Assembly (NCBI GenBank): GCA_017626815.1 | Contig: JAGAHY010000004.1 | Coordinates: 1 to 49,657 of the forward strand | Reading direction: 5' to 3' | DNA from: Bacilli bacterium | GTDB taxonomy: Bacteria > Bacillota_I > Bacilli_A > RFN20 > CAG-826 | Length of the DNA stretch: 49,657 nucleotides | Part shown: piece by piece, positions 2,836-36,449 of the stretch | Position numbering within the stretch: the first letter of the stretch is position 1 | Layout: each line of letters starts with the position of its first letter | Made by a program: the position numbers and the translations under genes | Notes under the pieces: generated by a model | Database searches by the model: none | Seen by the model: only the letters and a program-made list of their open reading frames with translations | Told to the model about the DNA's origin: nothing

Positions 2836-4851
<2,016 letters not shown>

Positions 4852-4902
4852 TGCTAGAATCGGTAATTTAGCGTTTAGTTATGTATCTTTCTTTGGAACG
4901 CG

Positions 4903-4956
4903 CTTCCCTTTATGGGAAGAGGTGTTTATACTTTCCCTGATTGGAGCGTTTTCTTT
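4903..4956 (+). promoter_or_regulatory. Probable gatCAB promoter region with a small inverted repeat
   Basis: Between ligA and gatC there are 105 bases. They hold a perfect hairpin, CTTCCC-TTTAT-GGGAAG (4903-4919), and a good -10 hexamer TATACT at 4927-4932, 24 bases before the gatC ATG. The best -35 at 18 bases spacing, TTCCCT, is poor, so the promoter would be weak or activated. The hairpin is not followed by a T run, so it is not a convincing terminator for ligA; overlap with the -35 position would fit an operator. A GGAG sequence at 4943-4946 serves as ribosome binding site. Confidence 0.35.
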
Positions 4957-5253
4957 ATGAAAGAGATTAACCTGGACGTACTCAAAGACGCGGCGCACCG
5001 TCTGCTTTTTGACATGTCCGATGAAGAATATGAGACATTGCTCTCTGAGTTTGCCGTGCTCACGAAACAAATGGAAACCATCGGCAAAATCGAAGGATTG
5101 GAAGACTATGAACCGATGACCTTCCCCTTCGAATGTGAGACGACTTATCTTCGCGAAGATGAGCCGACCACTCCGCTTTCGCGCGAGGAGGCTTTGGCTA
5201 ACGCCGGCTCAACGTTAGACGGGGAGATTAAACTTCCCAAGGTGGTAGGTTAA
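4957..5253 (+). CDS. gatC: Glutamyl/aspartyl-tRNA(Gln/Asn) amidotransferase subunit C
   Basis: A 98-residue small subunit of the GatCAB amidotransferase, which converts Glu-tRNA(Gln) (and often Asp-tRNA(Asn)) to the correct amidated form. The protein has the GatC layout: an N-terminal helix pair (VLKDAAHRLLFDMSDEEYE) that wraps GatA, a middle EDYEPMTFP segment, and a C-terminal LREDEPTTPLSREEALANA motif that is typical of the family. I place the start at the ATG at 4957 (MKEINLDV), not at the in-frame ATG at 4912, because the family begins here, a GGAG lies upstream, and the longer version would overlap the probable -10 box. gatA follows after a single base. Confidence 0.93.
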   Translation: MKEINLDVLKDAAHRLLFDMSDEEYETLLSEFAVLTKQMETIGKIEGLEDYEPMTFPFECETTYLREDEPTTPLSREEALANAGSTLDGEIKLPKVVG

Positions 5254-5254
5254 T

Positions 5255-6715
5255 ATGAACTATTTAGACTTATCGATTCGTGACATCCACCAGGCCTTGG
5301 TGGAAAAGAAAGTCACCCCTTTGGAATTGACCAAAGAAGCTTTGAAGAGAGCGAAAGAAAACAAAGACAACTGCTTTGAGATGATCCTTGAGGAAGAAGC
5401 GCTTGCCTTTGCATCGACGTTAACTGAACCTGAAGCGGATAACCTTTTATGGGGCATTCCTTACCTCGCCAAAGATAACTTCTCAACTAAGGGGCTTCCG
5501 ACGACGGCTTCCAGCAATATTCTTGTGGGCTATAAGCCGTTATATGATGCGACGGTCATCGCTAAACTAAAGGAAAAGAAAGCCGTATTGATCGGCAAGA
5601 CTACCTTGGATGAACTCGCCATGGGCGGAACGGGCACGACCGGCCACCTCGGCATTACTTATAATCCCTATGACCCCAAACATGAGCGCATGATTGGCGG
5701 CTCAAGCTGCGGATCTGCTGCGGCTATGGCTGCGGGCATTGTTCCATTTGCCTTAGGCTCGGATACGGGCGACTCGGTCCGTAAGCCGGCTTCTTATGGT
5801 GGTGTCATTGGCGTGAAACCGACCTGGGGCAGGATTTCTCGTTACGGGTTATTCCCCTTCGCACCGAGCTTGGATCATGTCGGTTATTTCACCCGCTATG
5901 CGGAGGACGCGGCCGTTTTGCTCGAGGCTCTTTCGGGCAGGGATGTCATGGATTCGACATCTTCCGTGAAAGATGTTGATGCGTATGTCGCAGAAAGTGA
6001 GAAAGAATTAGTTTCCCCACGTATCGCGGTTCTCGACGATATCGTCGAATCCATCCGCGACAACGCGATCCGCGACGCCTTCCTCGATTCTTTGAAGAAG
6101 CTGGAAGAGGCTGGAGCCATGATTAACCATATCCGCTTTGGGCATGACCTATTAGAGTCCATCTACGCGACTTATATTGTCATTTCTTGTGCCGAGGCAA
6201 CCAGCAACGACGCCAACCTCGACGGCATTAAATTTGGCCCATATTACGAAGGCAAGACCTACCAAGAGGTTATGTCCCAAGCGCGTACTAAGGGATTCTC
6301 TGAATTAATCAAGAGGCGTTTCGTCATCGGTAGTTTTGCCTTGATGCGCGAGAACCAGGATGTCTTGTTCCTCCGTGCACAAAAGAACCGTGCGAAAATC
6401 GTGGAGCGCACCAACCAAATCCTCGCGGACAACGATTTCATTTTCGTCCCTGCGGCTCCGACAGTCGCCCCAAAACTTGGTGCCACTAGCGATAAGCTTT
6501 CCGATGAATACCTCATCGCGGATAACCACCTTGCTTTGGGCAACTTTGCAGGCCTTCCCTCCATCACGATGCCGCTTGGCTATGAGAATGGGCTACCCTT
6601 TGGCGTGAACTTCATGGGCCGCGCATTCGAGGAATCCAAATTGTTGTCCATTTGTCGTACCTTTGAAAAAATCACGGGGATTTGCGGCGACTATTATGGA
6701 AAGGAGGGCAAGTAA
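5255..6715 (+). CDS. gatA: Glutamyl-tRNA(Gln) amidotransferase subunit A
   Basis: A 486-residue amidase-signature enzyme that releases ammonia from glutamine and channels it to GatB. The catalytic Lys is in YLAKDNF and the two serines are in GGSSCGSAAAMAAG and GSDTGDS, forming the Ser-cis-Ser-Lys triad. The second signature reads TGDSVRKPAS; most bacteria have TGGSIRQPA, while from memory the aspartate form is common in Mollicutes, which helps to place the organism. Length is normal. The gene starts one base after gatC and is followed by gatB after 2 bases, so the three subunits are co-transcribed and probably translationally coupled. Confidence 0.97.
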   Translation: MNYLDLSIRDIHQALVEKKVTPLELTKEALKRAKENKDNCFEMILEEEALAFASTLTEPEADNLLWGIPYLAKDNFSTKGLPTTASSNILVGYKPLYDATVIAKLKEKKAVLIGKTTLDELAMGGTGTTGHLGITYNPYDPKHERMIGGSSCGSAAAMAAGIVPFALGSDTGDSVRKPASYGGVIGVKPTWGRISRYGLFPFAPSLDHVGYFTRYAEDAAVLLEALSGRDVMDSTSSVKDVDAYVAESEKELVSPRIAVLDDIVESIRDNAIRDAFLDSLKKLEEAGAMINHIRFGHDLLESIYATYIVISCAEATSNDANLDGIKFGPYYEGKTYQEVMSQARTKGFSELIKRRFVIGSFALMRENQDVLFLRAQKNRAKIVERTNQILADNDFIFVPAAPTVAPKLGATSDKLSDEYLIADNHLALGNFAGLPSITMPLGYENGLPFGVNFMGRAFEESKLLSICRTFEKITGICGDYYGKEGK

Positions 6716-8822: not shown

Positions 8823-9836
8823 ATGAACATTTTAGTTACTGGCGGCCTCGGATTTATTGGTTCCCACACCGTCGTGGAACTCATTTCCGCCGGCCACACC
8901 CCCATCATCGTAGACAATCTCGTCAATTCCAAACTCGAGGTTCTCAATCGTTTAGAAAAAGTTACTGGAGTCCGTCCGGCCTTTACCCAGCTTGATGTCG
9001 CGGACAAGGAAGCTTTGGATAAAGTCTTTGATGCGAACAAGATCGATGCGGTTATCCACTTTGCTGGTCTTAAGGCCGTCGGGGAATCCGTCAGCAAGCC
9101 TTTAGAATATTATTCCAACAACCTCGGCTCCACGCTTACCCTCATCGATTGCATGAAACGCCATGGCGTGAAGAATTTGATTTTCTCTTCCTCGGCTACG
9201 GTCTATGGCGTGCCCCCGAGCCTTCCCATTAAAGAAGAATTCCCGCTTGGCGAAACCACCAATCCCTACGGCACCTCCAAAGCCATGATTGAGAGAATTT
9301 TGACCGACTTCTGCAAAGCAAATCCTGATTTTAACGTTGCGTTGCTCCGCTATTTCAACCCCATTGGCGCTCATGCTTCCGGCGAACTTGGTGAAGATCC
9401 TAACGGCATCCCCAACAACTTGATGCCTTATATCACACAAGTTGCTGTTGGCCGTCGTGATCACCTTACTGTCTTCGGTGATGACTACGATACCCCCGAC
9501 GGAACCTGCGTCCGCGACTACATCCACGTCGTCGACCTCGCCATTGGGCACGTCATGACCTTGAAGAAACTGGTTCAGAATCCTGGCCTTGTCATCTATA
9601 ACCTCGGCACGGGTAAGGGCTCTTCTGTCTTTGAAGTGCTTGCCGCCTTCGAAAAGGGCACCGGCGTCAAGATTCCTTACGTCGTCGGGCCGAGAAGGGC
9701 AGGGGACTTACCCTTCCTCTATGCTTGCTGCGACAAAGCCTTCGAGGAGCTTGGCTATAAAGCGACCCGCACCGTTGAAGATGCGTGCCGTGACGCTTAT
9801 GCCTTCCAAAAGAAGAATCCAAACGGTATCCAATAG
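8823..9836 (+). CDS. galE: UDP-glucose 4-epimerase
   Basis: A 337-residue extended short-chain dehydrogenase that interconverts UDP-glucose and UDP-galactose for the Leloir pathway and for surface glycan precursors. It has the NAD-binding TGGLGFIGSH at residues 6-15, the catalytic Ser in FSSSATVYG (about residue 124), Tyr149 and Lys153 in NPYGTSK, and the GalE-type LRYFNPIGAH and CVRDYIHVVDLA motifs. AAGGAGA sits 8 bases before the ATG. It is the last gene of the plus-strand block and is followed by an intrinsic terminator. No other Leloir gene is in the window. Confidence 0.97.
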   Translation: MNILVTGGLGFIGSHTVVELISAGHTPIIVDNLVNSKLEVLNRLEKVTGVRPAFTQLDVADKEALDKVFDANKIDAVIHFAGLKAVGESVSKPLEYYSNNLGSTLTLIDCMKRHGVKNLIFSSSATVYGVPPSLPIKEEFPLGETTNPYGTSKAMIERILTDFCKANPDFNVALLRYFNPIGAHASGELGEDPNGIPNNLMPYITQVAVGRRDHLTVFGDDYDTPDGTCVRDYIHVVDLAIGHVMTLKKLVQNPGLVIYNLGTGKGSSVFEVLAAFEKGTGVKIPYVVGPRRAGDLPFLYACCDKAFEELGYKATRTVEDACRDAYAFQKKNPNGIQ

Positions 9837-9856
9837 GCTTCATGCTCATTTCGAAA

Positions 9857-9883
9857 TCCGCGCCTAAATGACGCGGGTTTTTT
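9857..9883 (+). terminator. Intrinsic terminator after galE
   Basis: CCGCG (9858-9862) pairs with CGCGG (9872-9876), with a T-G pair outside it, and is followed at once by six T residues (9878-9883). It closes the gat-galE transcription unit. Confidence 0.85.
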
Positions 9884-9917
9884 ATAAATATTTTTCGCAC
9901 ACATGCGCAATGTGTTA

Positions 9918-9946
9918 TTGATTGTTTTTTTCATTGACTTTAAAAT
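9918..9946 (+). promoter_or_regulatory. Sigma-70-type promoter of the 9994 gene
   Basis: TTGATT at 9918-9923 and TAAAAT at 9941-9946 are separated by exactly 17 bases. Transcription would start near 9953, giving a leader of about 40 bases with AAGGAGGG at 9979-9986 just before the ATG at 9994. Confidence 0.7.
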
Positions 9947-9993
9947 GGAATGTAAAGAAGTGTAAAAACTCGGCAAATAAGGAGGGATGCCAT

Positions 9994-10872
9994 ATGGGTA
10001 ACGACATCGTAAATGTGAACGAGTTCTCTTCCAACAAGGAGACTGAGGTTTCTCCAGCTAAGGAAACCGTGATTCAAGTTTTTTCTGAAGGCAGCCAAGT
10101 CGTCGATGGTCAGCCGGCGGAAAACAAAGAAGTGATTGAAGTGAAACAGGGTGAACCTATTAACATTGAAATCACCGAATACGATACCGTCGAAATGGAA
10201 ATTAATGGCGTCACGACTGTCCTTTATCAAGGAAAACCCCGCCCTGCGCCGAAGCCAATTAAGAAGCCTGCGCCCAAGAAAGTGGTTAAACCCGCGCCAA
10301 AGGCCGAGCCCAAGCCGGAGCCCAAACCTGAGCCCAAACCGGAACCTGCACCTGTTGTTGCACCAGCCCCCGCTAAGACCGGACCCATGCCGCCAAGAAG
10401 AGGCGCCGTCATCCGCAAGAAGAACAGAAAGATTACCCGTTCGAAAGAACTCGCGGACTTTGGCCCAGGCTTGACGGATGATAATCAGCACTCCATTCAC
10501 ACCATTCCTTTCGAGGAAAAAGTCAATATTGCGCCAAAGGATATCAAGAAAAAATACAAAGACCTTTCGGCGTATTTGACGGATGTCTACGGCTGCTCGC
10601 ACCGCATCAGTTTTGGTTATGACTCCTATCGCGTTGGCAAGAAGGTCGTCGTTGCTTTGTCTCTTGGCGGCGTTCACTTACGCGTCAACGCGGCCATTGA
10701 CCCGAAGTTCTATGAAGGAAGCAAACTCCATGTCAACGATGACTCGGATTCCAAGAAATACAAGGACATGCCGAGCTATATCAAAGTCATGTCGGATAAG
10801 ACCTACAAACAGGCCATCCGTCTCATCGATGACACGATGAAGAACCTTGGAGTCAAAAAGATTAAAGCCTAG
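9994..10872 (+). CDS. Unknown protein: acidic N-terminus, Lys/Pro/Glu linker, conserved C-terminal domain
   Basis: A 292-residue soluble protein with no signal peptide or membrane segment. Residues 1-80 are acidic and include a motif that reads like a small beta domain (GEPINIEITEYDTVEMEING). Residues 81-135 form a low-complexity linker of KP and EPKP repeats. The C-terminal 120 residues contain an ordered domain: ISFGYDSYRVGKKVVVALSL, DPKFYEGSKLHV, DSKKYKDMPSYIKVMSD. From memory this domain recurs, unnamed, at the ends of many uncharacterised Firmicutes proteins (pattern YLALDPKEY...KYHVxD...KKYxxVP...KSDR). The start at 9994 is set by a strong AAGGAGGG; an upstream in-frame start at 9922 would sit within the promoter. 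The gene has its own promoter and ends 11 bases before the receptor gene, so they probably share a transcript. Confidence 0.75.
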   Translation: MGNDIVNVNEFSSNKETEVSPAKETVIQVFSEGSQVVDGQPAENKEVIEVKQGEPINIEITEYDTVEMEINGVTTVLYQGKPRPAPKPIKKPAPKKVVKPAPKAEPKPEPKPEPKPEPAPVVAPAPAKTGPMPPRRGAVIRKKNRKITRSKELADFGPGLTDDNQHSIHTIPFEEKVNIAPKDIKKKYKDLSAYLTDVYGCSHRISFGYDSYRVGKKVVVALSLGGVHLRVNAAIDPKFYEGSKLHVNDDSDSKKYKDMPSYIKVMSDKTYKQAIRLIDDTMKNLGVKKIKA

Positions 10873-10883
10873 GATTTCAAAAT

Positions 10884-12698
10884 ATGGCTGATTCAAGCCG
10901 TTTGAATAACAAAAATAACCCGCTTCTGCGGGTATTTTTGCCTATTCTTTTTTCTCTTCTCATGATTGCAATCCCAATCGGAACCCGCTTGGCGTTTTTG
11001 GGGTTGGACCAGGAAATACCTGCGCTTAACCAAGGCAATCTAGATTTGTCGGAGCATAAACAGCTTTTTTACCATAATTATTTTCTTCGCGGGCAGGTGG
11101 AATTCTTCTATAACGAGTGGATTGTTAGCGAACCTAACGATGATGCGAGCTCTGTCTATATCCCAACGCCTTCGCCATGGACTGGCAAAACGGACGCTAA
11201 TGGAAACACGATGAGCGCCTCAGGCTTTGGCAGTTACCGTTATTTGATTTCTGGTCTTACTCCAGGCGCCCGTGTCTATGCCGACGCCAATTTGAATATC
11301 CCCAATAGGATATATTTAAATCGTTTCCTATGCTCGCAAAATGGCAACCCCAGCAAACAAAACCAATCCACCTTAGTTCCCGCGAATCCCTCGATTTCGA
11401 CCTATGTTGAGGTGCCCTTGGATGGTGTAGTGGAGTATGTCATGGAAGTGGGAAACACCAACATGGGCGGCACCTATTATTTAGGCACTGTTATTGGCGT
11501 TGATAATGCCGCTGCAAAAGTATTCCCACGCATTCTATCCCTGCTGACTGTCGGCGTCATTCTTTCATCTATAGGCGTAGGCGTCATTCTCATGCTCTTA
11601 GCACAGAATAGGCTTCGTCATGCATGTCTGATTGGTGCGGCCGCCGCAAACGTAGCGCTATATGGCGTGTCTCGCGACTCTGTTTTGGGCGACTTCAACT
11701 ATGTCTTCTCGATGCGGTTAAGCGAGGTATTCTCCGCTGGCTTCTTTGTCATTATGACGATAATGCTTCTTTTATATGGATATTTTTCGCGCTCGCGTGC
11801 GCTAAAACGTTCAGAGATCATTACTGTAAGCGCAATCTTAATTGCGTCTATGGTTGGTTTTGGTATCTTAAGTGGAACGGGTTATGAATGGATCCCCTTT
11901 ATCTTCATTTTGGCCTGTGCTTTCGTGGGCGAAGTTCGCTTCATTTACCTTGTATACCACCGACAACTAAATTATGCCTTTCTCTCCTTATGGTCTTTTT
12001 TGCTTGGCTACGGTGTCGTTTTATTAGGCTCGTTTGCCAGCTTATTTGACACATATCTCCAGCAAATCCCCACGATTTTCGCAGCCTTCTTCGTTATTAC
12101 TTTCTTAGGCATCGGATTCTACGATGTCCATCAAGAATCACTGATCCAAAAAGATAAGGCCGTCGTTGAACGTCGTTTTCGACTCGTTTCTAATCGTGCG
12201 TTAGTTCGGGTTTCGACCGATAAAGAAACGCTATGGACCCTTAGTGAAATTGGCAATGCGTACCGAGCGGATTTCAAAGAAGGCGACCGAAAGTTAGTCT
12301 TTTTCTCAGGGTTACTGCGGAAGCGCCTTTTGGCATTGCGCGAGGAAACCATTACCTTTGAAAACGAATGTGATCTCGAGAGCAAATTTTTCCGTTTAAG
12401 AAACGCGAACATTCACGCCCCCGCAACCCTTCTTTTGGGTTTTGACGATGGAGATATGAAGGTTCCTCCGTTGTTATTCGAAGAGGCGATTTTAGAAATC
12501 ATTCATGGTTTCAAAAACGAAGGCATTGTCAGCTTAGAAGAAACCAATCATGTCATCACCTTGACTTACCCATCAGACATTTCTCTTAGCGAGACCGTCA
12601 TTTCTAATGCGCGCGAGCGCGCGACTGTTTCCGGCTTTGTGATACATTTTGAGCCAGGCAAAATTACTTTAGAAAGTGAGGCGAACAGCCATGAGTAG
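10884..12698 (+). CDS. 7TMR-DISM-like receptor with degenerate histidine kinase module
   Basis: A 604-residue membrane protein. After one N-terminal membrane segment, residues about 40-210 form an extracellular domain with the 7TMR-DISM pattern (FGSYRYLISGL, then VEYVMEVGNTNMGGTYYLG). Seven hydrophobic segments follow (about 215-410). The cytoplasmic end aligns with a LytS/YesM-type kinase but the key residues are gone: no histidine in the FFSGLLRKRLLALREE helix; VPPLLFEEAILEIIHGF stands where PPMLLEPLVENSLQHS is expected, so the N-box Asn is lost; no DNGxG; and ISNARERATVSGF has lost the GxGL before it. I infer a pseudokinase that senses a ligand and signals through a partner. It overlaps the intact kinase gene by 8 bases. 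An alternative is a decayed kinase in the course of loss, but the frame is clean over its full length. Confidence 0.7.
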   Translation: MADSSRLNNKNNPLLRVFLPILFSLLMIAIPIGTRLAFLGLDQEIPALNQGNLDLSEHKQLFYHNYFLRGQVEFFYNEWIVSEPNDDASSVYIPTPSPWTGKTDANGNTMSASGFGSYRYLISGLTPGARVYADANLNIPNRIYLNRFLCSQNGNPSKQNQSTLVPANPSISTYVEVPLDGVVEYVMEVGNTNMGGTYYLGTVIGVDNAAAKVFPRILSLLTVGVILSSIGVGVILMLLAQNRLRHACLIGAAAANVALYGVSRDSVLGDFNYVFSMRLSEVFSAGFFVIMTIMLLLYGYFSRSRALKRSEIITVSAILIASMVGFGILSGTGYEWIPFIFILACAFVGEVRFIYLVYHRQLNYAFLSLWSFLLGYGVVLLGSFASLFDTYLQQIPTIFAAFFVITFLGIGFYDVHQESLIQKDKAVVERRFRLVSNRALVRVSTDKETLWTLSEIGNAYRADFKEGDRKLVFFSGLLRKRLLALREETITFENECDLESKFFRLRNANIHAPATLLLGFDDGDMKVPPLLFEEAILEIIHGFKNEGIVSLEETNHVITLTYPSDISLSETVISNARERATVSGFVIHFEPGKITLESEANSHE

Positions 12699-13929
12699 CC
12701 ATGGAAAAAAGAGGTTATTGTTCGCTTTCGTTGTCTTTTCTTTCTCGTTGATTCTTTCGCTTTTGCCTGTTCAGGAAATTCTTACGGAATCCTTTTTCCT
12801 CATTGCCTTTGGCGCGTCGATTTTCTTGCTCTTCCTCTCAATTTTGTTGGCCTCAATTCTGAAGCCATTGCGCGATTACGCATTGCTGGCAAAAAAAGTC
12901 GTTTGCTTAGGGCTAATGATTTTAGCCTCGGCCATCGTACGACCAGATGCTGGGGAGAGCGAGCAGTATCTATATACCCTTTGGGTTGCCATTTCAGGTT
13001 ATTTGGTATTCGAAATTCATTCGTGGAAATACGATATCGTTCCTTTAGTGGGGACGACGATTTCCATCGTTTTAACCCTGATTCCTGGTTATGTCCATTA
13101 TGGTCTTGGTGTGATGTTTATCACGGGCGTCATGGGTACTTTATTCATGCGCAAATCATCGAATAGAATCGGGGCCATCTATGTTGCCACCTTCTCCGCT
13201 ATCAGCGCCATTTATGTACTTCCGAACGCCAGTGTATCTTACTTTGGCGCGTTCATCTTATTGTTCCTTGTTTCGATCGCTTATCTTGGACAGGATTTGA
13301 TCGCCTTATATCGTTTGAAGGTCGCCAATGACGCCATTCAGGAAAAAGAACGCGAGTTAATTCGCTTGGAAGAAAAGACGCTCAAAGAAGAAATTCGTCC
13401 TCACTTCTTGCTGAATGCATTGAATAACGTTCGTGTGGCCTATCATGAAGGAACCGATTATGGGACTGAAATGTTACAAGAGCTCATCGCGCTGGAGACC
13501 AAAATTGATGCCACTTCTCAGAAAGATCTAATTTCGTTAAAGGAAGAAATTGAAATCATCCAAGGACTGGTACGGTTATTCTCCATCGAAAGGAAAAAGG
13601 AGATTGGTCTGCTTCTTGAAATTGAAAATAATGACACCTTGATTCCACCCATGCTTTTGGAACCATTGGTGGAAAATTCGTTGCAACACTCCGGTATTTT
13701 GTATAAATCAAATGGCCTTGTATCAATTAAGGAATCCTTAGTTCAAGGGTTGACTATGATTGTTGTTTCCGATAATGGTGTCGGTAATGCTGACCCCAGA
13801 AACAACCGTGGCATCGGATTAAGCAATGTCGATTACCGCGTCCATCTATTGAATCAGGGTACATTGAATGTCTTCTCGGACTCGAATGGGACGAAGATTG
13901 TCATCAGCTATATTGCGCCGCGAAAATAA
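12691..13929 (+). CDS. Sensor histidine kinase, LytS/YesM type
   Basis: A 412-residue kinase with about seven membrane segments in residues 8-200 and no large extracellular domain. A short coiled coil (EKERELIRLEEKTLKEE) leads to the phospho-acceptor His238 in EEIRPHFLLNALNN. The GHKL ATPase part is intact: N-box in MLLEPLVENSLQHS, G1 in VVSDNGVGN, G2 in RGIGLSNVDYRV. The ATG at 12691 is preferred to a GTG at 12676 because AGTGAGG lies at the right distance and the start overlaps the stop of the receptor gene (ATGAGTAG). This kinase probably works together with the pseudokinase receptor upstream, and the response regulator encoded convergently at 13972-14766 is the likely target. Confidence 0.9.
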   Translation: MSSHGKKRLLFAFVVFSFSLILSLLPVQEILTESFFLIAFGASIFLLFLSILLASILKPLRDYALLAKKVVCLGLMILASAIVRPDAGESEQYLYTLWVAISGYLVFEIHSWKYDIVPLVGTTISIVLTLIPGYVHYGLGVMFITGVMGTLFMRKSSNRIGAIYVATFSAISAIYVLPNASVSYFGAFILLFLVSIAYLGQDLIALYRLKVANDAIQEKERELIRLEEKTLKEEIRPHFLLNALNNVRVAYHEGTDYGTEMLQELIALETKIDATSQKDLISLKEEIEIIQGLVRLFSIERKKEIGLLLEIENNDTLIPPMLLEPLVENSLQHSGILYKSNGLVSIKESLVQGLTMIVVSDNGVGNADPRNNRGIGLSNVDYRVHLLNQGTLNVFSDSNGTKIVISYIAPRK

Positions 13930-13952
13930 AAGGCCATCGGTAGGATGACCTT
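13930..13952 (-). terminator. Terminator between convergent kinase and response regulator genes
   Basis: AAGGCCATC (13930-13938) pairs with GATGACCTT (13944-13952) with one mismatch and a 5-base loop. On the minus strand the stem runs into TTTATTTT, so it mainly serves the response regulator gene. It begins one base after the stop of the kinase gene. Confidence 0.65.
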
Positions 13953-13971
13953 ATTGAAATAAGCGGATGAT

Positions 13972-14766
13972 TTAGCGGATGCCCGCGACTTTGAGGTCCA
14001 TCGGGTATTTGTATTCTTTCGCCCATTCATAGCCGGGCATAAAGATGCCGTTATAGCCTTTGACCTTGTCTTCGAGGAAGTCCCAATAGTCGGAGTGCGC
14101 CCAGTTCTTATTGATACGGAGGTAACCATATCCGAAGCTGACCATATTGCTTAATCCGGCTTCTTCTAAGACGGCCTTAAGACGAATCTTGGCGTCGCGG
14201 TAGAGACGTTTGGATAAATCAGGGTCATGAGAGGGCCAAAGTTTCGCGATCGCGGCTTCCAAAGTCAACGTAGAGCCATTATAGACAGTGAGCAAGGCGA
14301 GAAGCTCTTTGCTCTTCGCCGACGTGAAGTCGATGACCTCATCGTCTACGAACAAGTCAAAGGGAGCGAAGGTTTTGAGGAAGACATCGGTTTTCCGATT
14401 GGTGATTTGAGCGAAGAAGGCGTTTAACTTAACGGGGTCAAAGGGCTTATAAGCAAAGCCTAGGAGGCGATCGCCGAATTCATAGCTGATCATCTTCTCA
14501 TCAAAGGTAAACGCGGTGATGAAAACGATCTTTACCGTCTTGTTGACTTCGATGACTTTATGAGCGAGGTCCACGCCGTTGATGTTGGGCATACGGATGT
14601 CCATGAATACCGCTTCGACCGTATGGGTGGCACAGTAATCAACGACATCGTTTGGGGAGTCGCAATAGAAACGATAATCGAAGTCTTTACCTAAACTGGT
14701 TAACAGAAACGAAGCCAATGCCTGCGGTTCGTCGTCGACAATGATAATTTTGTTCTTTTCAGTCAT
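13972..14766 (-). CDS. Response regulator with SARP-like winged-helix output
   Basis: A 264-residue two-component response regulator. The receiver domain (1-125) has acidic DDE at 11-13, the phospho-acceptor Asp56 in VFMDIRMPN, Thr in VFITAF and Lys in GFAYKPFDP. The output domain (about 140-264) is not LytTR: it reads VDDEVIDFTSAKSKELLALLTVYNG, KLWPSHDPDLSKRLYRDAKIRLKAVLEEAG and SFGYGYLRIN, the pattern of OmpR/SARP-type winged helices seen in Firmicutes regulators. No Shine-Dalgarno sequence precedes the ATG. Instead TACAAT (14773-14778) with TTAAAA 17 bases further up puts the predicted transcript start at or next to the ATG, so the message may be leaderless. It lies tail to tail with the kinase gene 12691-13929, its probable partner. 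Confidence 0.85.
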   Translation of the reverse strand: MTEKNKIIIVDDEPQALASFLLTSLGKDFDYRFYCDSPNDVVDYCATHTVEAVFMDIRMPNINGVDLAHKVIEVNKTVKIVFITAFTFDEKMISYEFGDRLLGFAYKPFDPVKLNAFFAQITNRKTDVFLKTFAPFDLFVDDEVIDFTSAKSKELLALLTVYNGSTLTLEAAIAKLWPSHDPDLSKRLYRDAKIRLKAVLEEAGLSNMVSFGYGYLRINKNWAHSDYWDFLEDKVKGYNGIFMPGYEWAKEYKYPMDLKVAGIR

Positions 14767-15205
14767 GGAACTATTGTAAACCCAAAAAATTGTTTTTTTA
14801 AACGATACGAATTTGCGTCGCGCTGTTCTATTGGCGTTTCGCTGACGGGAAGATAGATGAAGGATAAAACGCCAAATAAAGGAAAGGCATTTACAAACGG
14901 CAAGTACGTTATAAAACTCGTTTCGAATAACATTGCAAAAACGCTAGATTCGGGTAAATTTCCATTATTTTCCCGTAGAATTGGCCTTAATTAAAAATGT
15001 ATTCGCGAAACGGATAAAAGCGAGCGATCATTGAAATGACGGTTTTATGGCAGTTGTTTTTTGCGAACGAAAGGCGGAGCATTTTTATGGCGATTTAAGA
15101 TTTCGTCCGTTTACTGCCCGAAATCAGCTTCGTGAAAACATCATTATAAGATGTCCATGAAAAGCTGAAGGATGTAGAATATGAATGAATTTAGGAGCAA
15201 TACAA
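14767..15205. other. 439-base gene-poor region between divergent genes
   Basis: No convincing gene is visible. The region holds the probable response regulator promoter (14773-14801) and, near its right end, ACATC-ATTATAA-GATGT (15138-15154), an inverted repeat spanning a TATAAG that could be the -10 box of the hydrolase gene. Between them CGTTTCGC (14836-14843) recurs inverted as GCGAAACG (15004-15011), and related CGTTTCGAAT and GCGAACGAAA lie at about 14929 and 15063. A 45-codon open frame at 14857-14994 is noted but not accepted. Its length and the repeated TTCG/CGAA words suggest regulatory DNA. Confidence 0.4.
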
Positions 15206-20332: not shown

Positions 20333-22300
20333 TTATTCTCCTTTCTTTACGGATAGGCTTTCGAATAGTTCTTTGAATGCGGAATCTTGGCGGTAGAAGG
20401 CGATAGGCATCCCTAATGGGGTCTCGATCGTGTGCTTTCCGCCTTCATAAGTTTTGCCTGTGAAGAATTGTACCCATCTTTCTTTAGGAAGGTACACTTC
20501 TTGTGATTGTTTTTTATCGCGCAGCACTGGTGCGACGAGGACGTCGCGGCCAAATAAATATTCCCGTTGATTCACAAAAGCTTCATCTTCGGCGAAGTGG
20601 AAGAATAGTGGTCTCATTGTCGGGAGTCCTTCGTTGTAATATTGGTTTAGGACATGAAGACGGTAGGGCTTCAACTGCGCGAAAAGACGGGAGTTTTGCG
20701 CGAATTCTTCGATAACTTCGGGGTCGTCGTATTGGGCATTATCTTTGGGTCTATTCCCTTCATGGGTACGAAATACCGGGGTGAAAACGTTCATCTCGCT
20801 CCAGCGGCGAAGCAGCTCAGGACCACGTTTCATAAACATGACGGTGGTATACCCGCCAATGTCGCTATGGATGATGCCACAGCCGGAGCAACTCAACGAT
20901 AAAGTGGCTGGGATGACGGAGCCAAGTCCATATTCGTCACTATAATCGACATGCTGATCGCCATTCCACATCGAGTTGGTATATTGAAGGGTGTGACCAT
21001 AGGCTGCGCGGTTGAAGATGAAGATTTCATCATCTTTCCCAGATTCATTGATCGCATCACGGCAGCATTTCGCCCATAAAGTCGGCCAACGGTTATGTAG
21101 CTTTTCGGGATCGCCACCATAGACGACGGAATCTGTGGGCAGGTATTCGCCAAAGTCGGCCATCCAACCTGAAAGGCCATAGCCGATCATGTTCTTCTTC
21201 ATGATTTCCTTATACCAATCGTAGGCGGTGGGGTTGGTCAAATCGACGATGCCCGCATCAAAAGTAGTGGATTGAATCAGATACACGGACCCGTCTTTGT
21301 GTTTGACGAGGAAACCTTTCTTTTTCGCTTCGTTATATAGGGGCGAGCCTTCTTTTAGGAAGGTATTGATATAGCCGAGGAAGCGAACGCCATCCGCGTT
21401 GAGCTCTTGGATGAATTCGCTAAGCCCCTTATAGAGCTCTTCGTCCGCGAACCAATTCCAATAGACTTGATAGCCAAAGGAAGTGACTACGTGGCCGCAC
21501 CAATCCTGGGCCCATAAAGCTGCCACTTTAATGCCTTTTTCTTTGGCTTCGCGATATTTTCGACGCAGAACATCGATGCCACCTTGGATGGCTAAAATCG
21601 CTCCGTCATTGACCCAGTCGGGAATGCGCGGGGAGATACCGACTAAATAACAAAGTTTGGACGCGAGTTCACGGGTGTTATTTGCAGTTAGGATGCTGAT
21701 GGATTGCGGGAATTGACGGAAGTGGATGAGAACTTCGCCATCGCGGAAAAAGATTTTGCCGTAAGAGTCCTCATGACAATAAAAGGCGTAGTGCTTAGAC
21801 GAAACAAAACTTGGGACGCTACAATAGGTTTGATGGTTCTTATATGCGGACACCCGGTCTGGATCTGGGCCATGGAGTTTTTCGTGGAGCAACTTTTTTG
21901 CGATTTTCAAAATAGCCTGATGTTCGCTGACCCAAATCGGCACCTGTTTTCCATGGAGGTCGAGGGTCGTGTATTGCTCACCGCAGCCGTAAATGTGTTC
22001 TCCCGAGAAGGTTTTGAAACGGATGGTGAAACGGTTGTAGGGGTAGTCCACATGAAAGTGAAGTTTAAGACAAGGCTCATAAGTGGCGATGATTTCGCAG
22101 GTAACCCTCCCATCGCCGAATAGATATCGATCCCCATCTTGACTGACAAAGGTCAGTTTGTGTGAGTCGTAAGCGTGGTCCTTGGTTTTAAAGGATCCTC
22201 GGCTCATCTTATATTTCGCTTTCCCCTTGGAGACGATGAGATAGCATTCTCCGTTGGAAAGCTGCTCGACAAAATATCGCGCCAATTCTTCGCGGTCCAT
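20333..22300 (-). CDS. GH31 glycosidase, sulfoquinovosidase-like (YihQ clade) with altered sulfonate pocket
   Basis: A 655-residue cytoplasmic GH31 enzyme. It tracks E. coli YihQ along its whole length: IYGCGEQYTTLDLHGK, AIQGG, WAQDWCG, GWMADFGEYLPTD with nucleophile Asp382, and MWNGDQHVDY with acid/base Asp448. Using YihQ recalled from memory, its sulfonate-pocket residues Q262, Q288, R301, W304 and Y508 correspond to Q239, Q265, Q278, W281 and Y484 here. All are kept except the arginine, which is a glutamine (SFGYQVYWNW). The enzyme should therefore bind sulfoquinovosides differently, more weakly, or prefer another 6-modified glucoside. It is first in the operon, with AAGGAG 8 bases before the ATG, and corresponds by position to SftG. 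Confidence 0.85.
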   Translation of the reverse strand: MDREELARYFVEQLSNGECYLIVSKGKAKYKMSRGSFKTKDHAYDSHKLTFVSQDGDRYLFGDGRVTCEIIATYEPCLKLHFHVDYPYNRFTIRFKTFSGEHIYGCGEQYTTLDLHGKQVPIWVSEHQAILKIAKKLLHEKLHGPDPDRVSAYKNHQTYCSVPSFVSSKHYAFYCHEDSYGKIFFRDGEVLIHFRQFPQSISILTANNTRELASKLCYLVGISPRIPDWVNDGAILAIQGGIDVLRRKYREAKEKGIKVAALWAQDWCGHVVTSFGYQVYWNWFADEELYKGLSEFIQELNADGVRFLGYINTFLKEGSPLYNEAKKKGFLVKHKDGSVYLIQSTTFDAGIVDLTNPTAYDWYKEIMKKNMIGYGLSGWMADFGEYLPTDSVVYGGDPEKLHNRWPTLWAKCCRDAINESGKDDEIFIFNRAAYGHTLQYTNSMWNGDQHVDYSDEYGLGSVIPATLSLSCSGCGIIHSDIGGYTTVMFMKRGPELLRRWSEMNVFTPVFRTHEGNRPKDNAQYDDPEVIEEFAQNSRLFAQLKPYRLHVLNQYYNEGLPTMRPLFFHFAEDEAFVNQREYLFGRDVLVAPVLRDKKQSQEVYLPKERWVQFFTGKTYEGGKHTIETPLGMPIAFYRQDSAFKELFESLSVKKGE

Positions 22301-22331
22301 TAGTCGCTCCTTTCCTTATTTCCGATTTAAA

Positions 22332-22359
22332 AGTCTACCACCTTTGGAAGCGCTTTCAA
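22332..22359 (-). promoter_or_regulatory. Promoter of the GH31/sulfoglycolysis operon, overlapped by an operator
   Basis: On the minus strand TTGAAA (22354-22359) and TAGACT (22332-22337) are 16 bases apart, giving a short leader to the ATG at 22300. The -35 box lies inside the palindrome described next, so a bound protein would block RNA polymerase. Confidence 0.6.
22344..22359. promoter_or_regulatory. CcpA/LacI-type operator palindrome
   Basis: TTGGAAGCGCTTTCAA is a 16-base palindrome broken at one pair. Its inner 14 bases (22345-22358) fit the published cre consensus TGNAARCGNWWWCA at every position. It overlaps the -35 box of the minus-strand operon and lies 30 bases before the -35 box of the transporter gene. 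No LacI-family gene is in the window, so CcpA or a distant pathway repressor is equally possible. Confidence 0.7.
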
Positions 22360-22388
22360 TTCTTTGAGTGGTTTTTGTACGATTCCCT

Positions 22389-22417
22389 TTGATTTTGTGT
22401 GCTCCAATCATTAGACT
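22389..22417 (+). promoter_or_regulatory. Promoter of the GPH transporter gene
   Basis: TTGATT (22389-22394) and TAGACT (22412-22417) are 17 bases apart. The -10 hexamer is the same as that of the divergent operon promoter, which suggests matched strength. Confidence 0.55.
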
Positions 22418-22479
22418 GAAAATAAATTAAGCGCAAAAACACCAACAAAACGCCCGTGAATTTGCGCTGGAGGAATCAT

Positions 22480-24021
22480 ATGTCAGATACTGAACAACGA
22501 GAACCTCGGGGCAGTAACACTGGGGTAATGTCCCAAACTTCAGGTTTGCGTAGCAAGGACTATATCGGCTATGCCTTAGGTGATTTTGCCGGGTGTCTTT
22601 GCTTCTCAACGATCACCACATTGCTGCAGAAGTACTACACGGATGTTCTTGGCCTAGCACCGCTATTCATCATGATCATGTTTATCGTGGCTCGTGTCTG
22701 GGACGCGATCAATGACCCCATCATGGGCCGCATCGTCGACCTTAGAAAGCCCGACAAGCGTGGCCGCTACCGCATTTGGATGAAGTGGATTGCCATCCCG
22801 CTTGCCATCGCGACCATCTTGGTCTTCTTACCTGGTCCGAACATCGTCAATTTCCTTGGTGGTCCTGGCGGGGTCGGAATTTGCATCTATGCGACGGTTA
22901 CCTACATCGCCTTCGGTATGCTTTATACCGTTCACCAAATTCCTTATGGCTCCTTGGCTTCTGTCGTCACCACCGATGATAAAGAACGTAACAAACTTTC
23001 CGTCTTCCGTTCCGTCGGCGCGGCATTGGGCTCCATCCCCGTCCTCATCATCACCTTTATTTGGGCCAAAGATAAACTGGATGCCAATGGCAATAAGGTC
23101 ATCGGCGAGAACGGGAAGGTCATCACCCAAGTTCAACATTGGCCGATTATCATCGGTGTCGTTGTCATCTGCGTTTTGGCGGCCATCTTGCTCTTTGTCG
23201 CTTACCGAAACAACAAAGAACGTGTTGTCGCCAAGCCTCAACCTAAGGGCGAAAAAGGCGCTGCTTGGAAGATTACTAAGACTTTATTGAAAAACCGTAA
23301 CTTCATCGCCGTGTGCTTAATTGGTTTGCTCTTACTCGCCGGCCAGATGTTCACCCAATCCTTCTATACCTACCTCTTTAACGACTTATTCAGCGCGAAC
23401 TGGATGAACATGGTCTCCATGGTTTGCACCTATGCCCCGATGGCGGTTTTGATGCTGTTTGCCGGTAAGATTGTCCGTAAGTTCGGCAAGAAGAATTTCT
23501 GTGCCGTCGGCGGTATCGTCGCTGGCGTGGCAAATCTCGCTCTTGTCTTCCTCAAAGGACCCGTCGTTGCGTTCCCGCCTTTATTCTTAGTGTTCTGCTT
23601 CATCTCTGGCTGCGGGCTTTCCGTCCTTACGCTAGAAATCTGGGCTCTTGCCACTGATGCCATCGATGACGTCGAAGTGAAATCGGGCAAGCGTAATGAC
23701 GGCACTGCCTATTCCGCGTTTATGTTCTTCCGCAAATTGGGCCAAGTCGTGGCCGCCATCGCCGTCAATGGTGCCTTAATCGGCATGAATTACAAAGCTG
23801 GCCCTGGTGAAGTTCAGACTGCCGAAACCTTAAATGTCATGTACTACATGGCTACCATTATCCCGGCCGTGATGTTTGGCGCGATGGGCGTTGTCGCCTT
23901 GGTTATTTATGGTCTTAATAAGAAAAAGACCGAGGAATTGCAGGTGGAAAAAGCAAAAATGCTCGAATCGAAAATCGCTGCTGGCGAAATCGATGTCGGT
24001 GAAAACGCCACCCAAGATTAA
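22480..24021 (+). CDS. GPH-family (MFS) sugar:cation symporter, probable sulfoquinovose transporter
   Basis: A 513-residue membrane protein with about twelve hydrophobic segments. It belongs to the glycoside-pentoside-hexuronide (MelB/YihO-like) family: DYIGYALGDFAGCLCFSTITT at the first helix and RVWDAINDPIMGRIVD with the family's cation-site aspartates in helix 2, followed by a cytoplasmic loop DLRKPDKRGRYRIWM. The E. coli sulfoquinovose carriers YihO/YihP are in the same family. The ATG at 22480 has CTGGAGGA just upstream; an in-frame start at 22456 lacks one. It is divergent from the sulfoglycolysis operon and shares its operator region, which points to sulfoquinovose, its glycerol glycoside, or a related glycoside as cargo. 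Confidence 0.85.
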   Translation: MSDTEQREPRGSNTGVMSQTSGLRSKDYIGYALGDFAGCLCFSTITTLLQKYYTDVLGLAPLFIMIMFIVARVWDAINDPIMGRIVDLRKPDKRGRYRIWMKWIAIPLAIATILVFLPGPNIVNFLGGPGGVGICIYATVTYIAFGMLYTVHQIPYGSLASVVTTDDKERNKLSVFRSVGAALGSIPVLIITFIWAKDKLDANGNKVIGENGKVITQVQHWPIIIGVVVICVLAAILLFVAYRNNKERVVAKPQPKGEKGAAWKITKTLLKNRNFIAVCLIGLLLLAGQMFTQSFYTYLFNDLFSANWMNMVSMVCTYAPMAVLMLFAGKIVRKFGKKNFCAVGGIVAGVANLALVFLKGPVVAFPPLFLVFCFISGCGLSVLTLEIWALATDAIDDVEVKSGKRNDGTAYSAFMFFRKLGQVVAAIAVNGALIGMNYKAGPGEVQTAETLNVMYYMATIIPAVMFGAMGVVALVIYGLNKKKTEELQVEKAKMLESKIAAGEIDVGENATQD

Positions 24022-24044
24022 CCCTTCTTCTTTTGCCGGATTGT

Positions 24045-24078
24045 CCCGTTTCTATATAGAGGAGCGGGGCTTTCTTTT
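24045..24078 (+). terminator. Probable terminator of the GPH transporter gene
   Basis: CCCG (24045-24048) pairs with CGGG (24065-24068) around a loop that contains the self-complementary CTATATAG; TTTCTTTT follows. The stem is short, so confidence is moderate. Confidence 0.5.
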
Positions 24079-24091
24079 GCTCATAATAAAA

Positions 24092-24117
24092 GGTCGTCCG
24101 GTTGGACTCGGACGACC
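24092..24117 (-). terminator. Intrinsic terminator of the GH3-lipoprotein operon
   Basis: GGTCGTCCG (24092-24100) and CGGACGACC (24109-24117) form a perfect 9-base stem with an 8-base loop. On the minus strand the stem is followed by TTTTATTA, placing it just after the stop of the esterase lipoprotein gene. Confidence 0.88.
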
Positions 24118-24137
24118 CTAAGGAGAAGGAATGAAGA

Positions 24138-26300
24138 TTACTTCGCCGCCATCCATCCCCATAAAGAGACTGGGCTTCCGCCGACGAGGACATCTCTGCT
24201 GGAAGGGACAGAGATGCTGGCGGGGTCTGCTTGATCCTTGAGGACTTCGTCTTTTAAGACATAAATCCAGGAGTAGTGACCTTGATATTCGTTATGGTCG
24301 TTGCCTTCGTTACCAACGACGTTCTCGAATAAGGAGAGGTGGACGTCGGTGGCGCCGGCTTCGATCAAACGTTGGTAGGTCGGGATGGTGAACGCGGTCG
24401 GATCGACGGTGGTGTCATTGGCCGCATGTGTGAACCAAATGGACAGGCCTTTGAGCTTGGCGATGTCTGCATCGGTCACGAAGCTATCACTGTAGGCTTC
24501 GCAAACAGGATAGTAGGCGCGGAAGAAATCCGGGTAGGTGATAGCCATTTCCATGGTCATGTAGCCACCGTTGGAGCATCCGCCAACGAAGATACGGCTG
24601 GAATCGATATCACCATTGTCGGCGATATATTTGTCGATGGTTGACTTCAAAGCGGTGGTGTAGACGGAATGGCCAACACCGCCATTATTGTCACCTGTGC
24701 CGCTGTCCATCCACATCGTGGGGGTCTGAACCGCAAGAACATAAGCGCCCGCTTGCTGATTTTTGACGAAGTGGGATTGGACTTTGCTTTCGCCGAGGTT
24801 GGTCACGTCGTTGCCAAGCAAGGCGATATCAGGGTCGGTGCCGCCTTCACCCATACCATGCAGCCAGATGACGAGAGGGTTGGCAACGCCATCGTTGGCT
24901 AATGCGGAGGTTTCGTACGCTTTGTAAGTTAAGGTTTTGCCATCGGCGGTATGGGACTTCGGGTCTCCCCAGTCCGCGGTAGAGGGGATGATGCGGGCGC
25001 CGATTTCTTCTACGGTACCGGGCTTTTCATCGTTATAGGTTTCTTCACCGACCTTCACGGATTTACCCGCTTCGATGCCGACGGCGATTTTGATGTTGGG
25101 ATTCCAGTTATTGACGTTGTTGGCGTAAACGAAGGGAGAGCAGCCACCATCATCTGTGGACGGGAAGGCCCAGTCGCCCCAGACTTGCATGGTGGATACG
25201 TACTTGACTTCCAGGTCAAATCGGACATGGGTGCCGCTGGTGGCGTTGATTTCCGCGCCGAATTCATCCGTGAAGTAAACCTTGTTGATCGTTCTGGAAA
25301 TGCCGTTGGTTTTGACGGTGAAATTAGCAAGATCTTCTCTGACAACTTGACCGTTAAAGTGGGCTAAAACGCCTGTAATCGCAGGGCCAAATTCGAAGCC
25401 TTCGACGAAGTAGTCGACTTTGCCAAGGGAAACGGGTTTTGCGGCTTCTTTCACCACTTGGGCGATTTGGAGCTCTTTGGTGTAGACCTGGACGCAGTCG
25501 AGGTTCGGACCTTGGCCAAGAGCTTCGACGACGATGGTGTTTTCACCCTTTTTGACGTCGATACCCGTGAAGCTGATGGGGTTGAAATCATAGTAGTTAT
25601 TCGTGTCGCCATCTTCAGGTCCGGAAACAACCTTGCCTGAGAGATTTAACGCGACGCCATTGACGGAGATCTTCAAAAGCGAAGAGATGTCCATGTCAGC
25701 GTTATAGGCCATCATGAAGTCCATATCGACTTTTCCGTCTTTATCTGAGGTGAAGTAGATGGTCTCTTTGCAGCCCTCGGTGAACCAGCCGATGGACTTG
25801 CCACCATGGGCTTGATCGGTCTCCTCGACGGGAGTATCGCCAGGACCCATGACCATGCCGCCCCAGTTGAATCCCCAGAATCCGTCGGGGTCATAGTGGG
25901 TGGCGTCTTCGAATTCAAGATAGAAATCAGCGACGCGCGCATCGGCTTTGACGACGGTGATGTCGATGCTTCCGACTTTGTAACCGGTTTTGCGCGCCTG
26001 GATTTTGACGGTGCCCGCTTTGACGCCGGTGACGACGCCACTAGCATCGACGGTCGCAATACTGGTGTCTCTGGATTCAAAGGAGACGTCTTTGACGGAA
26101 GAGGTGATTTTTAACGTTTCGCCAACTTTCACAGTGGTTTCTGCGGCACTTAAAACAATCTTTTCTTCTTCGGCTTTTGAGGCAGAAGCAGATTGAGTGC
26201 TGCTTTGATTTGATGAGGATTCTGCGGGGTTATTTCCACCACAGGACGCCATGCCAAGCAACATCGCCGCCATGGCTAACGGGAATAATGTCTTTTTCAT
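24138..26300 (-). CDS. Surface lipoprotein: Big2, CBM-like module and CE1-like esterase domain
   Basis: A 720-residue exported protein. The signal peptide ends in GMASC, with Cys20 as probable lipid anchor, then a Ser/Gln-rich linker. Residues about 45-115 form a Big2 Ig-like domain (KVGETLKITSS, SIATVDASGVVTGVKAGTVKI). Residues about 120-280 form a CBM6/35-like beta domain (YLEFEDATHYDPDGFWG, AHGGKSIGWF, GENTIVVEALGQGPNLDCV). After a linker domain the C-terminus is an alpha/beta hydrolase of the feruloyl-esterase or PHB-depolymerase type: NPLVIWLHGMGEGG, nucleophile in FVGGCSNGGYMTM, Asp in ANDTTVDP, His in YQGHYSW. It probably removes acyl groups from plant polysaccharide at the cell surface. 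The ATG at 26300 is preferred to a TTG four codons earlier. It is the last gene of the GH3 operon. Confidence 0.85.
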   Translation of the reverse strand: MKKTLFPLAMAAMLLGMASCGGNNPAESSSNQSSTQSASASKAEEEKIVLSAAETTVKVGETLKITSSVKDVSFESRDTSIATVDASGVVTGVKAGTVKIQARKTGYKVGSIDITVVKADARVADFYLEFEDATHYDPDGFWGFNWGGMVMGPGDTPVEETDQAHGGKSIGWFTEGCKETIYFTSDKDGKVDMDFMMAYNADMDISSLLKISVNGVALNLSGKVVSGPEDGDTNNYYDFNPISFTGIDVKKGENTIVVEALGQGPNLDCVQVYTKELQIAQVVKEAAKPVSLGKVDYFVEGFEFGPAITGVLAHFNGQVVREDLANFTVKTNGISRTINKVYFTDEFGAEINATSGTHVRFDLEVKYVSTMQVWGDWAFPSTDDGGCSPFVYANNVNNWNPNIKIAVGIEAGKSVKVGEETYNDEKPGTVEEIGARIIPSTADWGDPKSHTADGKTLTYKAYETSALANDGVANPLVIWLHGMGEGGTDPDIALLGNDVTNLGESKVQSHFVKNQQAGAYVLAVQTPTMWMDSGTGDNNGGVGHSVYTTALKSTIDKYIADNGDIDSSRIFVGGCSNGGYMTMEMAITYPDFFRAYYPVCEAYSDSFVTDADIAKLKGLSIWFTHAANDTTVDPTAFTIPTYQRLIEAGATDVHLSLFENVVGNEGNDHNEYQGHYSWIYVLKDEVLKDQADPASISVPSSRDVLVGGSPVSLWGWMAAK

Positions 26301-26315
26301 AGTATTTTCCAAAGA

Positions 26316-26332
26316 GGGGCCAGGGTTGCCCC
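26316..26332 (-). other. Intergenic hairpin between the two lipoprotein genes
   Basis: GGGGC (26316-26320) pairs with GCCCC (26328-26332) around a 7-base loop in the 51-base gap. It is followed on the minus strand by TCTTTGG, too poor in T for a full terminator. It could be a processing site or partial attenuator that lowers expression of the esterase gene. Confidence 0.35.
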
Positions 26333-26351
26333 TAGCCCCAAAGATTATGTG

Positions 26352-28001: not shown

Positions 28002-28037
28002 GTTTTTCTCCTATTTTAAGGGTATTTTTGCAGTGAT

Positions 28038-31046: not shown

Positions 31047-31093
31047 GTTGTTCCTCCTGAAGGGATTAAAGGTGATGAGTCAAGATGACTTCA

Positions 31094-31120
31094 GATATCT
31101 TGTTCCGGACCAAAGATATC
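31094..31120. promoter_or_regulatory. Operator-like inverted repeat before the GH3 gene
   Basis: GATATCTT (31094-31101) and AAGATATC (31113-31120) are perfect inverted arms around an 11-base centre that itself contains the palindrome TCCGGA. On the minus strand it lies about 11 bases downstream of a -10-like hexamer, a position suited to repression. Confidence 0.5.
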
Positions 31121-31130
31121 CCCTTCCCTT

Positions 31131-31159
31131 ATGTTATGGCTATATTTTCCATGGCTCAA
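31131..31159 (-). promoter_or_regulatory. Possible promoter of the GH3-lipoprotein operon
   Basis: On the minus strand TTGAGC (31154-31159) and TAACAT (31131-31136) are 17 bases apart. Both match the consensus at four of six positions. The leader would be about 75 bases and would contain the inverted repeat at 31094-31120. Confidence 0.4.
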
Positions 31160-31165
31160 AAACAA

Positions 31166-31194
31166 AAGGGAGGGTTAACGCATAACCTTCCCTT
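31166..31194 (-). terminator. Intrinsic terminator of the LytTR two-component operon
   Basis: AAGGGAGGGTTA (31166-31177) pairs with TAACCTTCCCTT (31183-31194) with one wobble pair and a 5-base loop. On the minus strand it is followed by TTTTGTTTTTG, downstream of the kinase gene that ends at 31226. Confidence 0.88.
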
Positions 31195-31225
31195 GGCTTC
31201 CCATATCCTTATCACTTGTAAGGGG

Positions 31226-32551: not shown

Positions 32552-32552
32552 G

Positions 32553-33460: not shown

Positions 33461-33483
33461 TTTTCTAAGCGCGAGGGACAAAA

Positions 33484-36364: not shown

Positions 36365-36384
36365 GTAACTCCAACGCAGGCAAG

Positions 36385-36436: not shown

Positions 36437-36449
36437 GAAATGAATGGAA

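Follow-up and report, generated by a model that had tools for sequence, protein, structure and literature searches.

In the textbook view, histidine kinases work as homodimers and every chain both senses and catalyses. What, then, is the role of a membrane receptor that ends in a kinase module stripped of its catalytic residues and whose gene runs directly into the gene for an intact kinase? This question is raised by a locus of a rumen bacterium of the GTDB genus CAG-826 (assembly GCA_017626815.1); the whole stretch analysed, positions 1 to 49,657 of contig JAGAHY010000004.1, is referred to here as the window. Three genes are central to the question, and we call them R, K and RR:

10884-12698, + strand: R, receptor ending in a pseudokinase, 604 amino acids (open reading frame, structure model, orthologues L180-L183)
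12691-13929, + strand: K, intact LytS-type histidine kinase, 412 amino acids (Pfam, motifs, orthologues)
13972-14766, - strand: RR, response regulator with a receiver and a winged helix, convergent to K (Pfam, structure model)

An earlier, sequence-only reading of this locus proposed a split sensor in which one protein binds the ligand and the other performs catalysis. We favor this explanation, with a probability of about 0.6: the locus would encode a split membrane receptor in which R is the ligand-controlled partner of K and K phosphorylates RR. The proposal is well founded, because R and K are co-conserved and adjacent in five of five genomes and the C-terminus of R is a kinase homologue; the parts that we infer are that the two proteins touch and which way control runs between them. 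The overlap of R and K by 8 bases described in the sequence-only reading holds with the K start at ATG 12691 and grows to 23 bases if K begins at the upstream GTG, 12676. All four relatives have a 4-base overlap, and the gap between K and RR in the window is 42 bases.

What kind of receptor is R? Its parts, all on the + strand, are as follows:

10920-11009, +: first transmembrane (TM) helix or signal anchor, residues 13-42 (helix in the model, hydropathy)
11010-11498, +: external beta jelly-roll, residues 43-205 (beta strands 47-205 in the model, Foldseek)
11499-12128, +: seven-transmembrane (7TM) part, residues 206-415 (seven helices in the model)
12129-12353, +: signalling helix and pseudo-DHp, residues 416-490 (His replaced by Lys447)
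12354-12695, +: remnant of the ATP-binding domain (N-box Asn, G1 and G2 absent)

The structure model of R, built from 32 rows (mean predicted local distance difference test score, pLDDT, 81.9; predicted template modelling score, pTM, 0.65), runs from TM1 through the beta domain at residues 47-205 and seven TM helices at 206-415 into a cytoplasmic module. One long helix (395-462) joins TM7 to the first DHp helix, and the second DHp helix (464-485) is followed by the remnant of the ATP-binding domain at the cytoplasmic end. The best Foldseek matches of R in the PDB are histidine kinases, at modest E-values (4u7n, 2.7e-4; GanS 6swk, 3.4e-4; DesK, 1.1e-3). Glycosidase chains, many of them GH2, come next (E 2e-3 to 2e-2); the listing gives them without model ranges, and we read them as matches of the beta domain. 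A carbohydrate-like ligand of R is a tentative suggestion to which we give somewhat less than an even chance. VIA-align superposes residues 210-420 on rhodopsins (Z 14.8, root mean square deviation 3.5, 199 residues aligned), which for a helical bundle means a 7TM arrangement and nothing further; its listing for R is filled by this part and barely covers the jelly-roll and the kinase remnant.

Members of the 7TMR-DISM family carry a jelly-roll domain outside the cell, then seven TM helices, and a cytoplasmic module that varies. As seen in the model, the Foldseek matches and the 7TM part, R has this build, and its earlier description as a 7TMR-DISM-type receptor stands on architecture rather than on Pfam score. 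R matches zero Pfam families at E<=10 and zero NCBIfam families; PF07695 (7TMR-DISM_7TM) has no match in R at E<=10 and none in its own genome, and three of the 32 full-length relatives match it (best E 3.6e-5).

Is the cytoplasmic end of R derived from a kinase? When a profile of five R C-termini was aligned by hhalign to one of 13 intact kinases, the probability was 98.3% (E 1.8e-14, 160 columns); two unrelated control profiles reached 0.1% and 0.6%. An unrelated domain at this end, a possibility raised by the sequence-only reading itself, is ruled out by this match together with the two negative controls. By plain BLASTP, R of the window reaches only E 4e-5 over 98 residues against K C-termini, and the R C-terminal profile, run against PDB sequences, returned a single chance match (0.34). 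In the R/K alignment, Lys447 of R lies opposite His238 of K, Glu538 lies opposite Asn329, and the DNGxG motif has no counterpart. The cytoplasmic part of R is a homologue of the LytS-type histidine kinase (PF06580) family from which the phospho-acceptor His and the ATP-site residues are gone, and the loss of the His, the N-box Asn and the glycine boxes, first noted for the window, is borne out by alignment in all five R genes. Such loss is concentrated in few places: 77 of the 85 kinase-like genes compared keep the His, the N-box Asn, the G1 Asp and the G1 Gly, and the eight that do not comprise all five R genes, a single gene in each of L095 and L142, and a HisKA-like gene in L152 that is unrelated.

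K has what R lacks. Pfam assigns it His_kinase (E 7e-10; 39.5 bits against a cut-off of 25.2) and HATPase_c (4.5e-4), and its motifs PHFLLN, LVENSLQH, DNGVG and RGIGLSN are complete. Hydropathy shows eight hydrophobic helices in each of the five K orthologues and no external domain in K. K is, as originally described, an intact kinase without an external sensor domain; compared with R, its membrane part corresponds to TM1 plus the 7TM part with the external domain gone. For RR, Pfam finds Response_reg (4e-13), and the receiver residues D11, D12, D56, T84 and K107 are kept in 12 of 12 aligned sequences. The structure model places a winged-helix output after the receiver (pLDDT 91.9), with only one short and one longer helix after the wing. 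In a comparison of a profile of 16 RR-type output domains with the PDB, EmbR (9e-4) and AfsR (0.0018) come first and OmpR-family chains follow at 0.038 or worse; at E<=0.1, Trans_reg_C is found in 25 of 32 RR family members and the BTAD domain (PF03704) in none of the 32. LytTR, which ComE-type regulators carry, has no Pfam match in RR. The VIA listing for RR is filled by the receiver, and the SARP assignment therefore rests on sequence, from which RR is read as a receiver with a SARP-like winged helix and without BTAD. These results support the earlier view of a SARP-type winged helix in place of LytTR, and the coordinates agree with its convergent placement.

Is R maintained, and is it maintained together with K? 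The genus sample consists of 31 genomes, in which an external domain occurs in seven genomes at eight places and R of the window type in five (G000, G196, G197, G198 and G199). The sequence-only reading had staked the pairing on R and K being kept together. A K-type gene (E<1e-150, with the next match at 1.4e-38) is found in exactly these five genomes and adjoins R in all of them. A close RR orthologue (E<1e-160; next 9.8e-67), 73-80% identical to RR of the window, is present in four of the 31 genomes, all with R and K. In the window, G198 and G199, RR lies next to K and faces it convergently; in G196 it is on another contig. In L094, whose coordinates point to the same assembly as G196, RR has no family kinase in the stretch covered, and R and K lie elsewhere in the same genome. 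All five R genes are open (600-604 amino acids, 30-33% identity to R of the window) and lack the His, the N-box Asn and the G1 motif, whereas the His, the Asn and DNGxG are present in all five K genes, although a contig end truncates the L180 copy beyond G1. R is thus a maintained gene that is co-conserved with K and RR.

The distribution of conserved residues suggests what R is maintained for. Mean pairwise identity across the five genomes is 45.5% for the external domain of R, 23.3% for its 7TM part, 45.9% for the signalling helix and DHp and 32.6% for the ATP-domain remnant; the corresponding values for K are 23.5% (TM), 51.1% (DHp) and 50.3% (ATP domain). Because the pseudo-DHp of R is as well conserved as its external ligand domain and twice as well as its 7TM part, contact appears to be the reason why the dead module persists. 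These values also bear on the idea that R is a decaying copy of a duplicated sensor kinase, a pseudogene in progress, which would account for the missing catalytic residues and for the lower identity of the ATP-binding remnant (32.6% versus 50.3% in K). However, decay would not spare the external and DHp residues that five open R genes share, and the pseudogene reading, to which we give a negligible probability, is ruled out by five open orthologues in which both regions are conserved. It is also very improbable that R is a separate receptor, functionally unrelated to K and its neighbor by chance or through a shared promoter, that may signal to another kinase. The genome does hold other kinase/regulator pairs of such a kind, but the overlapping adjacency of R and K is kept in five of five genomes, even in G196 with galE and RR elsewhere, and three further lineages described below place a pseudokinase receptor beside an active kinase.

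How might R control K? We propose that an outside ligand would be bound by the jelly-roll domain of R and that the signal would pass through its 7TM part to the catalytically dead DHp/ATP-binding module. This module would dock on K, most likely as a mixed DHp four-helix bundle, and the docked R would switch autophosphorylation of K on or off, with K supplying the phospho-acceptor His and the ATP site. Phosphate would then move from K to Asp56 of RR, and the SARP/OmpR-type winged helix of phosphorylated RR would bind DNA. Physical contact between R and K is highly probable in our judgement, and RR is likely to be the target of K; for the contact itself, a mixed DHp bundle is the form we would favor over others. 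In a strict 1:1 dimer of R and K only one chain would have a His and an ATP site, and autophosphorylation would therefore have to occur within K.

Several observations weigh against a split receptor of this form. RR is unlinked to R and K in G196, and no close RR was found in G197, where the contig ends inside K. The five genomes with R and K may form one clade, in which case their shared presence may reflect shared descent. With its own eight TM helices, K could sense alone. Finally, RcsC (active) and RcsD (inactive) are homodimers for which a 1:1 heterodimer has been argued against (PMC13317618), and because of this precedent a heterotetramer of R and K is possible.

Known systems provide precedents for the principle. 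In FasBCA(X) of Streptococcus pyogenes, FasC is a proposed sensing pseudokinase and FasB the kinase, and the two form a heterodimer by two-hybrid (PMC12675982). The likeness lies in two adjacent kinase-like membrane genes, one of them catalytically dead, with one regulator, and of the systems compared here this is the closest in how it works; a heterodimer without homodimers is a further mark of the FasBCA type. The differences are that FasC still has the phospho-acceptor His246, its kinase domain alone being dispensable, whereas R has lost the His too (it is present in none of the five R genes); that both Fas proteins have six TM segments, whereas R has an external jelly-roll and K eight TM helices; and that FasA is ComE-like, whereas RR is SARP/OmpR-like and convergent. 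The retained His of FasC and the ComE-like nature of FasA place the trio outside the FasBCA type.

In the kind of receptor, RetS-GacS is the closest of the systems compared here. RetS of Pseudomonas aeruginosa is a receptor whose ligands are likely to be carbohydrates; it meets GacS through their DHp domains (PMC12148439) and acts on this other kinase via a mixed DHp bundle, as proposed for R. The Foldseek listing for R also includes the RetS-GacS complex 7n0e (E 0.02). RetS carries receiver domains; R has none, its partner K is encoded by the next-door gene and lacks an external domain, and the kinases are of LytS type rather than HisKA. The RetS precedent raises the alternative that R is a brake, breaking up or blocking a K homodimer, with K alone signalling and the ligand releasing or strengthening the block. 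K does retain everything needed for a homodimer. However, FasC, the other precedent, is required for activity, and sequence does not decide the sign of the effect; we consider a brake rather unlikely.

Two further systems bear on whether R enters the DHp bundle of K at all. The gene rocA is not known to lie adjacent to covRS. RocA of S. pyogenes is a multi-TM pseudokinase that promotes CovS and co-precipitates with it; its six-TM sensory part is without a large external domain and CovS has its own sensor, which sets the pair apart from R and K (PMC7028121). RcsC-RcsD resembles R and K in joining an active kinase to a structurally similar partner with an inactive kinase domain, but the Hpt domain of RcsD relays phosphate, whereas R has no phosphate-carrying site (PMC13317618). 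R and K homodimers could accordingly be imagined to associate via their membrane parts as a larger complex, R staying out of the K bundle. The RcsC/RcsD homodimers, for which a heterotetramer is predicted (PMC13317618), and the interaction of RocA with CovS via membrane-spanning domains (Lynskey et al. 2019, as quoted in PMC7028121) speak for such a complex, but among the cytoplasmic parts of R the pseudo-DHp is the best conserved (46%), and conservation is lowest in the 7TM parts of both proteins (23%), and we regard this arrangement as distinctly unlikely. A ChrS variant is another inactive kinase acting on, or paired with, an active one (PMC9491836); DivL is mentioned in the same paper. The sequence-only reading knew of no described example of the trio. 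For the exact build this agrees with our search of the open-access literature, in which titles and abstract beginnings revealed no description of an R/K/RR trio; the principle is already known from FasBCA and RetS-GacS.

Have other lineages arrived at such pairs? An RR-profile scan of a genome collection with 84,980 named species gave at least 79 loci, which are a sample. Among the matches listed, a LytS-type kinase precedes RR in the same direction in 70 of the 79 loci; the convergent trio occurs in L093, seven loci are without a family kinase in the stretch, and one passed none of the three tests. Of these 79 listed loci, 34 carry an external domain, and three of the 34 hold a pseudokinase partner: L093, which is of the window type, L142 and L095. 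In L142:4226-7992 a 628-amino acid external-domain pseudokinase (SPAFLSS) precedes a 627-amino acid active kinase, and in L095:4235-8001 a 633-amino acid active kinase precedes a 622-amino acid pseudokinase (NPNTIFN). L084:6521-9677 (G083) encodes a 612-amino acid external-domain protein with the N-box and G1 lost, then a 443-amino acid active kinase without an external domain and a codirectional RR. The division of labour in this pair is as in the window, and its pseudokinase may keep the His, the alignment being ambiguous there. All three pairs in L142, L095 and L084 have an RR of the window type, with differing gene orders. A search of the order covered 279 genomes with at most four candidates scored per genome at a threshold of E 1e-20, and its counts are lower bounds. 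External-domain genes were found in at least 10 genomes, and eight of the 10 listed hold pseudokinase/kinase pairs: five of the window type, G127 (L142), G214 (L095) and G083 (L084). In the other two, G169 and G248, the gene is single and active, and the G248 contig ends 154 bases upstream of the receptor gene, leaving room for a partner.

Trees of these proteins have long branches, and near-identical active rows (twelve named) were removed before the sensor-part tree was built. The full-length tree needs at fewest two changes for seven pseudokinases and the sensor-part tree four for eight, of which the starred branches force two. In an approximately unbiased (AU) test on the sensor-part tree, a single pseudokinase clade is rejected (p 0.0137), the group having been named after the first tree was seen. 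Judged from these trees, pseudokinases arose at least twice, and we claim no exact number. Fused jelly-roll/7TM LytS-type kinases with REC-SARP regulators, found in Bacilli and Clostridia among L096-L171, have the same domains and families as the trio; they differ in that sensing and catalysis lie in one protein with a codirectional RR, whereas the trio is split and its RR convergent. They are probably the ancestral one-protein form. Among them, L096-L101 and L146, from genomes labelled Anaeroplasma, Anaeroplasmataceae or Mollicutes, have a fused receptor kinase between two REC-SARP regulators, and L133 has two complete fused-kinase/regulator pairs, convergent within one locus (3408-6059, + strand, and 9081-11734, - strand).

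The account given by the sequence-only reading was incomplete in two respects, having missed these pairs in relatives and a linked gene upstream of R. This gene, called gene0 here, and the region beyond RR are placed as follows:

9994-10872, + strand: gene0, first gene of the gene0-R-K block (ATG 9994 with AGGAGG in front)
14767-15184, no strand: intergenic region between RR and a hydrolase gene transcribed away from RR (sequence reading)

A close gene0 orthologue (E<1e-80; next match 8.2e-28) is present in exactly the five R and K genomes of the 31 and lies directly before R in all five, its end being 11 bases from the start of R in the window and about 8-17 across the five. In G196 the gene0-R-K block is unbroken while RR and galE lie elsewhere, and for this reason we take gene0-R-K as the unit; galE itself is 87-93% identical in three of the four relatives and 67% in G196. 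The gene0 product has a variable N-part and, behind a linker rich in Pro, Lys and Glu, a C-terminal domain of ~140 amino acids that is conserved (mean pairwise identity 74.0% in the five genomes) and is covered by no Pfam family. The N-parts of this gene type are exchangeable: DUF2357, a zinc-ribbon-like domain and GNAT in L181:4540-7737 and L183:7364-10504, GNAT alone in L182:3239-4552, and no such domain seen in the window and L180. Distant copies of the C-terminal domain occur in 30 of the 31 genus genomes, some in tandem. The intergenic region is, from its sequence, the likely RR promoter region and a possible candidate binding region. Elsewhere in the window, a conventional GHKL-kinase/LytTR-regulator pair at 31226-33275 provides a local contrast to the SARP-type trio, and 20333-39526 holds genes for glycan and uronate use (two GH31, GH3, a sugar MFS transporter, a PfkB kinase and glucuronate isomerase).

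What would such a locus mean for the biology of these kinases? We tentatively hypothesize, with less than even confidence, that the trio amounts to an obligate receptor kinase of two subunits, with sensing and catalysis completely separated, and that relatives reached such pairs more than once by inactivating one of two neighboring copies of a one-protein kinase. If this is true, bacteria would have in the trio a counterpart to receptor/pseudokinase co-receptor pairs (HER2-HER3, for example), one whose partner is encoded next door and whose regulator is of SARP type. With labour completely divided in a maintained pair, one can ask whether a single catalytic chain suffices, whether phosphorylation in a mixed dimer must stay within one chain, and how a receptor partner sets the kinase or phosphatase state. 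The one-protein relatives allow a comparison of the state before and after the split, and the pairs of L142, L095 and L084 would be further cases of the same trend.

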